DNA of 40,063 nucleotides from Candidatus Caenarcanum bioreactoricola (GCA_001899385.1 MOYB01000005.1:163956-204018), one strand, 5' to 3'. Positions 6,450 through 9,190 are shown, counted from the first letter of the stretch. Numbers and translations: made by a program. Notes: generated by a model from the letters alone, not told the origin.

Positions 6450-7973
6450 TTATTCCAGTCTAGAAAAGACTATACCTGTATTATTAAGCTTTTGTCCTTG
6501 TTTTAAATATCCCCAAGTTTTTTGAGCCCCCCAGCGCCCTAAAGGGGGAGTATTAAATATTTTTGAAATTTTTTCTGTAAGATTTGGCATAAATGGCATA
6601 AGTAAATTATTTATTATTCTTAAACTTTCCATTATTTCAACTAAAAGAATAATTGCTTTTTCTTTTTCATTATTATCTTCTGATTTAAGTAATGTCCAAG
6701 GCTTTCTTTCAGTAAAAATAAGATTTAATGAATCTATTACAGTAAATATTTCTTTTAAAGCATTATGAGGTTCAAGATTGAACATTGCTTGCTTTACTTT
6801 TTCAGGTAAATTCAAGCTCATCTGTGCTATTTGAGAGTTTTTTGAAAGTTTTATATTAGGTATTTCCAAATTTAAATAAGTTTCAAAAAGCTTTAAGACT
6901 CGTGAAAAAAGATTACCTAAACGATTTGCAAGATAAGCATTCACAAGTTCAATAAAAACATTTTCACTATAATCTCCATCTGCCCCAAAAGGAATATTAA
7001 AACAAAAATAAAATCTTACAGCATCAGTTCCAAATTTTTTATTTAATTCATAAGGATCTATAGTATTACCAGTGGTTTTACCCATTTTTTGTCCGTCTTT
7101 TGTTAAGAATCCATGACCAAAGATTTTTTGTGGAAGAACTACTCCTGCAGACATAAGCATTGCAATCCAATAAACAGCATGAAATTTTAATATATCTTTG
7201 CCTACAATATGATAATAACCCTCGAAATCTTTTAATTCATCAAGACTTTCAGGATTTTTTACAAGTGGGGATAAATATCCTAACAAAGCATCAAACCAAA
7301 CATATATTGTTTGAGAAGGATCATTAGGCACTTTTACACCCCAATTTACAGATCGCCTAGAAATAGGGAAATCCCTTAAACCTTCAGAAATCCAATTTTC
7401 TATTTCAGACATTCTATATTGAGGTTGAATAAAATCAGGATTATTTTTAAGAAATTGTTTAATTTCTTCAGTATATTTAGAAAGTTTAAAGAAATAATTT
7501 TTTTCAGAATATTCTTGGACTTTTGTTTTATGTATAGGACATAAATTTCCATCAATTAATTCTCTTTCATTTTTAAAATCTTCACAAGCAAGACAGTATA
7601 AGCCTTTATATTCTCCTTCGTATATATCACCATTATCAAAGACTTTTTTAAAGAAAGTTTCTACAAATTTTTTATGATGTTCTGATGAAGTTCTAGAGAA
7701 AACATTATAATTTATATTTAGATCAGTCCATAGTTCTTGGAATTTATCAGACATTAAATCACAATGAATTTGTGCTTCAAGATTTTTTTGTTTTGCAGTG
7801 TTTTCTATTTTTCCGCCATGTTCATCAATTCCAGTTAAAAAATAAACTTCATTACCATAAAATTTTTGAAATCTACAAATAGCATCACAAATAATAGTAG
7901 TATAAGCACTGCCAATATGAGGTTCAGCATTTACATAATATAAAGGAGTTGTTAAATAGAAGTTTTTATTCAT
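6450..7973 (-). CDS. metG: Methionine--tRNA ligase
   Basis: Charges tRNA-Met with methionine in the cytoplasm. The 507-residue class I synthetase shows 'PHIGSAYTT' near the N-terminus (HIGH box), a zinc-type cluster 'CLAC...CPIH' around residues 126-147, and 'KMGKTTGN' in the KMSKS position. It is the short form without the C-terminal tRNA-binding (Trbp111-like) extension. Start and hisA stop overlap by one base (TAATG), implying translational coupling. The C-terminus contains an odd peptide, PPLGRWGAQ, encoded by a GC-rich island at 6522-6550 just before the expected 'WGYLKQGQKL' segment. It looks like an in-frame repeat insertion at a variable surface position and probably leaves the enzyme functional. 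Confidence 0.95.
   Translation of the reverse strand: MNKNFYLTTPLYYVNAEPHIGSAYTTIICDAICRFQKFYGNEVYFLTGIDEHGGKIENTAKQKNLEAQIHCDLMSDKFQELWTDLNINYNVFSRTSSEHHKKFVETFFKKVFDNGDIYEGEYKGLYCLACEDFKNERELIDGNLCPIHKTKVQEYSEKNYFFKLSKYTEEIKQFLKNNPDFIQPQYRMSEIENWISEGLRDFPISRRSVNWGVKVPNDPSQTIYVWFDALLGYLSPLVKNPESLDELKDFEGYYHIVGKDILKFHAVYWIAMLMSAGVVLPQKIFGHGFLTKDGQKMGKTTGNTIDPYELNKKFGTDAVRFYFCFNIPFGADGDYSENVFIELVNAYLANRLGNLFSRVLKLFETYLNLEIPNIKLSKNSQIAQMSLNLPEKVKQAMFNLEPHNALKEIFTVIDSLNLIFTERKPWTLLKSEDNNEKEKAIILLVEIMESLRIINNLLMPFMPNLTEKISKIFNTPPLGRWGAQKTWGYLKQGQKLNNTGIVFSRLE
6522..6550. repeat. GC-rich palindromic repeat translated within metG
   Basis: A G/C-run island stands out from the AT-rich coding sequence. 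It begins with TTGAGCCCCCCAG (6522-6534), whose exact 13-base reverse complement occurs at 8466-8478 in hisA, and continues with a 'CCCTAAAGGG' hairpin. Read in the metG frame it encodes roughly PPLGRWGAQ. Confidence 0.6.
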
Positions 7974-9190
7974 TATGTTGACCCATCTTTAAAGCCCTCA
8001 CCCCGCCCTTCGGGCGACCCTCTCCTAAAAGAGAGGGTAAAAACAATTTTTTCTTTAACTTCTTTTATATTATTTAAAATCTCTTCATTAGAAAACCTAA
8101 TAATTTTACAACCAAGACTTCTAAGAAATTCTTCTCTTAAACTATCATATTCTTTTGTTTTTTCATGGATTTCTCCATCAACTTCTATTATTAATTGAGT
8201 TTCTACACAGAAAAAATCAACAATAAATTTATCTATTAGATGTTGTCTTCTAAATTTAAAACCTAATTTATTATTTCTCAATTCTTGCCATAAAAGATTT
8301 TCTGCTTGTGTAGCTTTTTTTCGCAGTTCTTTTACAAAAGGTTTTAATTTTTCAATTAAGAAAATATCTGTCCCTTTTATCTTTACTCCCCTCTCTTTTA
8401 GGAGAGGGGGTGGGGGTGAGGGTTTCAAAGAATTAGGAGAGGGGGTAGGGGATAAATGTTCGAGACTGGGGGGCTCAATAACCTCTTCTAATTTAAACTT
8501 ATTTTCATATAAAGCTTTTCCACAAATAATACCCTCAAGATTTTCAAATTTAGAACATTTTTCTCTTATATTTTGAATATCTTGAATTGAACCTATCCCT
8601 CCAGAAGCAATAGCTTTTATTGTTGGAAATTTTTCACATAATTCACTTAATTTTTCAATATTATGTCCCGTAAAATTCCCATCCCTAGAAATATCTGTGT
8701 AAATAAATCTTTTTAAACCAAAAGTTTTTAGTTGTGTAAGTAAATCTTCTGTTGTAATTTCAGATTCTTCTTGCCAACCTTGAACTGCTATTTTATTATT
8801 CTTTGCATCTAAACCTAATATTATTTTTTCAGAATAAAAATAAAGTGCTTCTCTTACAAAGTCAGGCTCTTTTATAGCAGAAGTTCCTAAAATAGTAAAA
8901 TTAACTCCTATACTTAAAATTTGTTTAAGAGTTTCTATAGAACGAATACCTCCACCAAATTCAATTTCAATATTTAAAGAACAAATTTTTTCTAAAGTTT
9001 TAAAATTTACTGGAAAACCCTGTTTTGCGCCATCTAAATCAACAATATGAATTCTTTCTGCACCTTGGTCTATCCAGCTTTTTGCAAAATCAAGAGGATC
9101 TCCATAATAATCAACTCGGCTATAATCGCCTTGTGTGAGCCTAACAGCTTTACCGTCAATAATATCTATTGCTGGAATTATTTTTATCAA
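7973..9190 (-). CDS. hisA: HisA isomerase fused in frame to a DUF559 endonuclease-like domain
   Basis: Residues 1-239 form a complete HisA (phosphoribosylformimino-AICAR-phosphate isomerase, histidine pathway): PAIDIIDGK at 6-14, 'EFGGGIR' near 77-83, 'LGLDAK' near 125-130, 'YTDISRDG' at 164-171, and the phosphate-binding 'ASGGIGS' near 195-201. Normal HisA ends at about 240. Here the frame runs on through a Pro/Ser-rich linker (240-270) into a DUF559/Vsr-like PD-(D/E)XK-type domain (about 272-388) with 'AENLLWQELR' at 296-305, RRQH at 314-317, 'IVDFFC' at 323-328 (D325) and 'IEVDGEIH' at 335-342 (E336, D338, H342). The fusion has no internal Met codon, so the domain depends on hisA translation. 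The linker and the C-terminal tail are translated inverted repeats of a GC-rich element. The stop overlaps the metG start, and rpmG ends 2 bases upstream. Whether both halves are active is unknown. Confidence 0.93.
   Translation of the reverse strand: MIKIIPAIDIIDGKAVRLTQGDYSRVDYYGDPLDFAKSWIDQGAERIHIVDLDGAKQGFPVNFKTLEKICSLNIEIEFGGGIRSIETLKQILSIGVNFTILGTSAIKEPDFVREALYFYSEKIILGLDAKNNKIAVQGWQEESEITTEDLLTQLKTFGLKRFIYTDISRDGNFTGHNIEKLSELCEKFPTIKAIASGGIGSIQDIQNIREKCSKFENLEGIICGKALYENKFKLEEVIEPPSLEHLSPTPSPNSLKPSPPPPLLKERGVKIKGTDIFLIEKLKPFVKELRKKATQAENLLWQELRNNKLGFKFRRQHLIDKFIVDFFCVETQLIIEVDGEIHEKTKEYDSLREEFLRSLGCKIIRFSNEEILNNIKEVKEKIVFTLSFRRGSPEGRGEGFKDGST
7995..8037 (+). repeat. Left inverted repeat of the DUF559 cassette
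   Basis: CCCTCACCCC, then a GCCC/GGGC hairpin, then a CCCTCTC/GAGAGGG hairpin with a 6-base loop. It is translated as the C-terminal tail of the HisA fusion ('SFRRGSPEGRGEGF'). Confidence 0.75.
8388..8422 (-). repeat. Right inverted repeat of the DUF559 cassette
   Basis: A CCCCTCTC/GAGAGGGG hairpin (8388-8409) followed by GGGGTGAGGG (8413-8422). It is the inverted counterpart of 7995-8037 without the extra hairpin. It is translated as the Pro/Ser-rich linker between HisA and the DUF559 domain. Confidence 0.75.
8433..8478 (-). repeat. Partial extra repeat copy flanking the DUF559 cassette
   Basis: Bases 8433-8451 repeat 8398-8416 directly with one mismatch over 19 bases. Bases 8466-8478 (CTGGGGGGCTCAA) are the exact reverse complement of 6522-6534 in metG. 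This suggests nested or successive repeat insertions at the hisA 3' end. The span is translated as about 'EPPSLEHLSPTPSPN'. Confidence 0.55.

Follow-up and report, generated by a model that had tools for sequence, protein, structure and literature searches.

In the bacterium Candidatus Caenarcanum bioreactoricola, the hisA gene runs in frame into a DUF559 nuclease domain that is enclosed by inverted, C-rich palindromic repeats, and elements of this type recur within other genes of the same genome, of related genomes and of other phyla. The account that we regard as likely is a mobile gene for a homing-type nuclease, whose terminal repeats are read as protein linkers and which is tolerated in the surface loops of its host proteins without being spliced; cleavage of DNA by the nuclease is inferred. 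In the following we show how the element is built and fused in frame, that empty sites exist, that two genes hold sister copies, that hosts recur, that the nuclease is under purifying selection, that some copies are internally deleted, and that a conversion-like tract lies at hydE.

The analysed window is a stretch of 40,063 nucleotides with a GC content of 27%, in which the fusion ORF occupies positions 7973-9190 on the minus strand (Table 1). It starts with TTG, codes for 405 amino acids and contains no internal stops. Pfam recognised both parts of the frame, His_biosynth with an E value of 5.5e-71 and DUF559 (PF04480) with 5.6e-35, the latter scoring 119.9 bits versus a curated cut-off of 20.6. 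An earlier note, made from the sequence alone, had claimed that the HisA frame continues into an intact DUF559 domain between inverted repeats sharing a perfect 20-base arm, which held for the ORF, the Pfam domains and the repeats. The perfect 20-nt inverted arms are located at 8018-8037 and 8389-8408, and outer inverted arms matching at 89% at 7986-8004 and 8413-8431; the repeats of the HisA element represent two of the five GC islands of the window. The claims that HisA is complete by residue 239 and that D325, E336 and D338 are intact also held: the HisA orthologues of the family end at the normal HisA end, those of the relatives lacking the extension, and the three residues are invariant columns in an alignment of 57 sequences, together with E297 and H342. 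The asserted lack of an internal Met codon was confirmed for ATG and GTG, neither of which occurs in frame after residue 239, but two TTG codons are present at residues 255 and 304, the latter within the DUF559 domain. The statement that the nuclease is made only as a HisA fusion held in part: it fits the HisA copy, barring a TTG start, but stand-alone DUF559 genes that have a start of their own are common elsewhere. We corrected the bounds of the element to about 7994-8451, using the block common to the ValS copy described below. Because the stop codon of the fusion overlaps the ATG of metG by its last base, the original end of the hisA gene may have been kept.

Table 1. Features of the hisA fusion and its surroundings (positions counted from the first letter of the window)
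Feature	Position	Strand	Basis
hisA core, residues 1-239, complete TIM-barrel enzyme	8474..9190	-	Pfam His_biosynth 3-232; orthologues of G001, G003 and G004 stop about there
Inserted element, ~458 bp (5' repeat block, DUF559 frame, 3' repeat)	7994..8451	-	block common to the ValS and methyltransferase copies of the same genome
Outer partial copy of the 5' repeat	8433..8451	-	direct repeat D1 and alignment; otherwise found in the ValS copy only
5' palindromic repeat (CCCTCACCCC...CCCTCTCCTAAAAGAGAGGG), read as Pro/Leu/Lys-rich linker	8389..8422	-	inverted repeats I2 and I4, genome repeat family
DUF559 nuclease domain, residues 282-385 (E297, D325, E336, D338, H342)	8036..8347	-	Pfam, invariant columns, AF2 model, Foldseek
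3' palindromic repeat (GCCCTCACCCCGCCCTTCGGGCGACCCTCTCCTAAAAGAGAGGG on the plus strand), translated LSFRRGSPEGRGEG	7994..8037	-	inverted repeats, also in the ValS and methyltransferase copies
Tail FKDGST and stop TAA, overlapping the metG start (TAATG)	7973..7993	-	sequence
Further palindromic repeat of another type, in frame near the metG 3' end, read as TPPLGRWGA	6525..6551	-	GC island

Pfam gave only HisA and DUF559-type domains for the fusion and no Hint splicing domain, by which an intein was ruled out. The palindrome in metG, 27 nt long and of another family, appears to have taken the place of about 12 host residues, leaving the length as it was, and the metG genes of relatives have unrelated residues of equal length at its position. 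Arms of this type also flank a DUF559 domain in genome G004 (L071).

A profile search of the source genome found five places with PF04480, four of them in frame within larger genes and one stand-alone. The in-frame hosts are HisA (open frame of 417 codons), ValS (insert in the middle, 1081 codons), a DNA methyltransferase (851 codons) and an SNF2-type helicase protein, whose copy is flanked by other repeats. The insert-bearing ValS is the sole full ValS match in this 91% complete assembly of 67 contigs, and the insert is absent from ValS orthologues. On the tree, the copies in HisA and ValS group as sisters (100/99); their nucleotide identity is 92% and their dN/dS 0.11. Searching the genome with the palindrome pattern yielded 37 matches per strand and none with the reversed control. 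Because the pattern is nearly self-complementary and finds the same 37 on each strand, these correspond to about 37 places, as compared with only three DUF559 copies carrying this palindrome type. The solo palindromes are mostly located outside long frames, and some of them are in frame. A PabB/TrpE-like gene (L016/L017, G000 C1, ~297124-297294) carries no nuclease but has two solo palindromic repeats within its reading frame, and one more solo repeat lies in frame in the region of the methyltransferase gene.

We surveyed 60 genomes of relatives and then 289 genomes of the class, and strong DUF559 matches were located in frames of at least 230 codons in 54 of the 151 cases listed for these class relatives. 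Their hosts comprise PriA, IspE, PrmA, HydE, HydF, an M14-type peptidase, a UvrD-like helicase, IleS, HsdS and several methyltransferases; here as in the named genomes, hosts were named from sequence motifs without a database call for each. IspE carries either internal or N-terminal inserts, and both together in G056. In the latter case (L062, from 2157 onward on the plus strand), a single IspE frame contains an N-terminal and an internal DUF559 domain which belong to different tree branches. KsgA-like and IspE sequences are found in one open frame of 730 codons, also with DUF559, at positions 703-2892 on the plus strand of L230 (G249). One DUF559 domain from family f5 is identical to that of a Candidatus Gastranaerophilales contig, from which we infer that the surveyed class is probably Vampirovibrionia/Melainabacteria.

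A scan of named genomes added 80 DUF559 loci from many phyla. In-frame hosts among these are HisF of three Pedobacter genomes, a PurL-like protein of Hymenobacter, an EpmA-like protein of Pseudoxanthomonas spadix, an Elusimicrobia HsdR and restriction-modification proteins of Planktothrix, Algoriphagus and Chloroflexota. In the three Pedobacter genomes (L107, L110 and L127), DUF559 is placed at the N-terminus of HisF, a protein related to HisA, but the tree does not group the HisF inserts closely with that of HisA. Pedobacter sandarakinus (L095, 4422-5891) contains a tandem array of three stand-alone DUF559 genes, which are nearly identical, regularly spaced at 561 nt and each enclosed by palindromes. 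Only 3 phage records and 39 records of a plasmid collection matched, all of them with less than 60% identity, and therefore no carrier was found. The earlier note had proposed searching for further repeat-flanked DUF559 copies, which indeed exist in the same genome and in large numbers in related and unrelated ones. Its author underestimated the scope, as insertions are often internal and affect probably essential enzymes rather than being confined to C-termini.

The association between repeats and nuclease was evaluated in two ways. Exact inverted arms of at least 14 nt between the two 200-nt flanks were present at 34 of 107 DUF559 domains (relatives plus named genomes) versus 5 of about 320 control pairs, for which flanks of different loci were combined; the 34 cases are not all independent because some loci are related or represent tandem copies. 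A composite repeat (CCTCACCCC-N0-20-CCCTCTCC) was found in 79 and strong DUF559 matches in 80 of the 289 genomes, with 58 genomes containing both. This co-occurrence corresponds to a Fisher p of 5e-25 over all 289 genomes, of 8e-17 within family f5, and of 1e-15 if at least three composite repeats are required. The test ignores phylogeny, and the counted repeats include some that flank DUF559. The reversed composite repeat had no match in any of the 289 genomes, and chance repeats were rejected by the reversed-pattern and flank-pairing controls. Some genomes contain many repeats without strong DUF559 matches, and others show the reverse. Composite repeats are especially numerous in G225 and G249 (53 and 58, respectively), the DUF559 match of G225 being only weak. 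It is possible that in cases like G225 the repeats outlast the nuclease or use another enzyme. Moreover, the flanking repeats at one host site differ between species, for which simple homing gives no account.

Occupied and empty alleles at the same site were found in close relatives for PriA, IspE, M14 and hydE, which meets a criterion for homing. Within one genus, G013 and G048 carry the insert in PriA, whereas G033 and G023 lack it; a comparison over 219 residues of PriA showed G033 and G013 to be 90% identical. For IspE and for M14, most of the roughly 30 genomes compared in each case lack the insert, whose place is a loop of variable length. The same loops contain short insertions resembling the repeats without a nuclease in IspE of L277 and M14 of L290. 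For HisA and ValS, empty orthologues were seen only against other genera. A tree uniting the inserts of one host gene in a single clade was rejected for internal IspE (AU p 0.008) and PrmA (p 0.029), was borderline for M14 (p 0.054) and was not rejected for PriA and HydE; these values are optimistic because the groups had been viewed on a first tree before testing. One ancestral insertion per host gene was accordingly rejected for the internal IspE and the PrmA inserts. At PriA and in most M14 pairs the inserts are less alike than their hosts, which indicates that many copies are old or arrived independently.

The end of hydE presents all states of the element. It is cleanly empty in L316, L317, L322, L323 and L328, and the full element is present in L311-L313, L315, L318 and L324. 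In L330 the element is internally deleted, both ends and a DUF559 tail being left; L321 contains a decayed copy, and L319 and L320 only a short palindrome. The terminal inverted repeats and the deletion derivative with both ends meet a criterion for IS/MITE elements, and no target-site duplication was evident on reading the hydE sites, the other sites being too diverged. A different repeat with ends like ACTTGTTTCTGATATTTGTTTTCTCGG...CCTCGAAAACAAATACC occupies the same hydE end in genus g40 (L325-L327 and L329). Comparing G075 with G150, the hydE insert is 98.2% identical versus 80.6% for the upstream hydE sequence. In 60-nt windows, most of hydE shows an identity of about 0.65-0.90; within the final 240 nt of the gene it is for the most part 0.95-0.97 (with one window at 0.80), across the insert 0.95-1.00 and beyond it 0.73-0.87, and the tract spans nuclease and repeats together. 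This is the pattern expected of break repair from an occupied allele and possibly arose in this way, but ordinary lateral recombination would look alike. The signal comes from one pair and one gene: G107 and G234 show no such rise in identity beside their hydE inserts, and none was seen at PriA. The claim of the earlier note that the cassette is selfish and keeps the host frame is thus supported at hydE as to selfish mobility, and remains an inference for HisA itself; the repeat-only and deletion derivatives and the homing-like conversion tract go beyond what it had described.

Of the 65 embedded copies of the nuclease, all keep the acidic residues D, E and E-x-D and 64 the His, the exception being the ValS copy with Gln. 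Pairs at the same site have dN/dS values of 0.09-0.24, and the embedded nuclease is under purifying selection. An AF2 model of the DUF559 domain has a mean pLDDT of 84, with most of the core above 90, and Foldseek matched it to NGO0050 (3hrl), the catalytic domain of I-Bth0305I (3r3p, E 1e-4) and, more weakly, E. coli Vsr (1vsr). The model predicts a Vsr-like PD-(D/E)XK fold with the acidic active-site residues present. DUF559 has already been linked to EDxHD (PMC9403480), and the DNA damage response of a Caulobacter methyltransferase mutant depends on the DUF559 protein VsrA (PMC12907096). Therefore, the family plausibly acts on DNA in cells.

From these observations we propose the following mechanism, in which it is inferred that the nuclease cuts DNA, what it cuts, that the fusion protein is stable in the cell, and how the element reaches new genes. 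The element is a unit of ~0.45 kb, consisting of the DUF559 nuclease frame between inverted C-rich palindromic repeats, with neither intron nor intein and without any splicing. Because the repeats contain no stop in the nuclease frame and are read as Pro/Gly/Ser-rich linkers, an in-frame copy in a surface loop or at a terminus would yield a host enzyme with a tethered nuclease. Translated within the host protein, the nuclease would cut either an element-free allele or DNA close to its repeats, after which repair of the break would copy the element in, which amounts to homing. Moves to a new gene would be rare, with selection retaining only in-frame, tolerated insertions; the shared repeats may act as landing places for such moves. 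Internal deletion would leave repeat-only palindromes.

The main rival account, which we consider unlikely, takes the palindromic repeats themselves as the mobile agents, using another enzyme as in Rickettsia palindromic elements (RPEs) or REPs, with DUF559 as a passenger or trans helper between two inverted copies. It draws support from the about 37 palindrome places facing only three DUF559 copies with this repeat type, from the in-frame solo repeats without nuclease in the PabB/TrpE-like gene, the methyltransferase and metG, and from the variation of flanking repeat types at one host site. Against it stand the strong purifying selection on an embedded nuclease with intact catalytic residues, the co-occurrence of DUF559 and repeats, the inclusion of both nuclease and repeats in the hydE tract, and the retention of both ends in deleted copies.

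A domesticated fusion, in which the nuclease is selected for because it benefits the host protein or cell by Vsr-like repair of deaminated bases or by phage defence, seems very unlikely to us. The purifying selection on the nuclease, the many restriction-modification proteins among the hosts and the connection of Caulobacter VsrA to DNA damage and a methyltransferase (PMC12907096) would fit this explanation, but the hosts are unrelated in function, the inserts sit in variable loops and are missing in most relatives, the same sites hold decayed and deleted copies, and the repeats are common to unrelated genes. Finally, a chance read-through or an assembly or sequencing artefact wrongly joining a neighbouring DUF559 gene to HisA can be practically dismissed. 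The assembly (67 contigs, 91% complete) contains runs of N near other repeats, but none at the HisA locus; the architecture is found in many independent assemblies, including those of the isolates Pedobacter sp. Leaf216, Pseudoxanthomonas spadix and Planktothrix rubescens, and dN/dS is well under 1. A sequencing error that would restore a stop near residue 240, by which the earlier note would have been refuted, was likewise judged unlikely because the same architecture occurs in dozens of independent assemblies and under purifying selection.

The mobile nuclease element favoured here resembles several known systems, and each of its ingredients has been described before, in-frame palindromes in the RPEs (PMC10969869) as well as EDxHD homing enzymes. 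Like the element, RPEs are palindromes inserted in frame into unrelated protein-coding genes, which are translated and remain unspliced (PMC10969869), but they measure ~150 bp and contain only a short conserved peptide (as reviewed in PMC10969869; Ogata et al. 2000, 2002), compared to ~0.45 kb, a conserved nuclease and an occurrence in many phyla. To our knowledge, there is no account of how RPE-like in-frame palindromes spread. With EDxHD homing systems the element shares occupied and empty alleles and, at one site, a conversion-like tract, I-Bth0305I (3r3p) being the closest solved homing enzyme by fold. Homing genes are usually located in introns or inteins or free-standing between genes, whereas the DUF559 element has no splicing element and its nuclease stays fused to the host protein. 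The REP/RAYT system (PMC3733652, PMC3686654) similarly consists of a gene for a DNA-acting enzyme between inverted palindromes which are also found alone throughout the genome. However, the RAYT enzyme belongs to the IS200-like tyrosine transposases, and REPs, which bear a GTAG/CGTC tag, mostly lie outside genes; the cassette instead encodes the DUF559 nuclease, and its C-rich repeats are often found within genes. No IS200-like Y1 transposase (RAYT) was present in the cassette, whose flanked frame is DUF559, and the GTAG/CGTC tag was absent on reading the cassette repeats and solo copies. A mobile homing-type endonuclease gene without intron or intein is fused to the mitochondrial atp6 gene of Allomyces. 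As far as is known, this is a single mitochondrial case carrying a copy of the host C-terminus, and it is neither bacterial nor placed mid-gene in many genes.

We did not find the combination of these ingredients, the range of hosts and phyla or the placement in the middle of probably essential enzymes in the open-access literature searched, which largely leaves out subscription papers and preprints. Papers connecting DUF559/COG2852 with in-frame or repeat-flanked insertion were likewise not found in the open literature (mostly titles and abstracts), and the inspected hits of a literature text search with the repeat core were unrelated. Most DUF559 genes have no assigned role.

In this system, palindromic repeats and a nuclease can be traced together with empty sites, decayed copies and a conversion tract. 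A bolder reading, which in our view may equally well prove right or wrong, is that of a widespread class of mobile elements in multiple phyla, in which a homing-type nuclease maintains itself as a constituent of host proteins, essential ones included, that is always translated and never spliced out. In that case, the C-rich palindromic repeats that are scattered in many bacterial genomes and sometimes code for protein would have DUF559 as their active partner. The finding would account for annotated proteins with unusual fusions or with proline/glycine-rich linkers, and it would offer natural examples of enzyme sites accepting insertions of 120-170 amino acids. If it is true, a selfish nuclease can persist within essential enzymes without a splicing machine.
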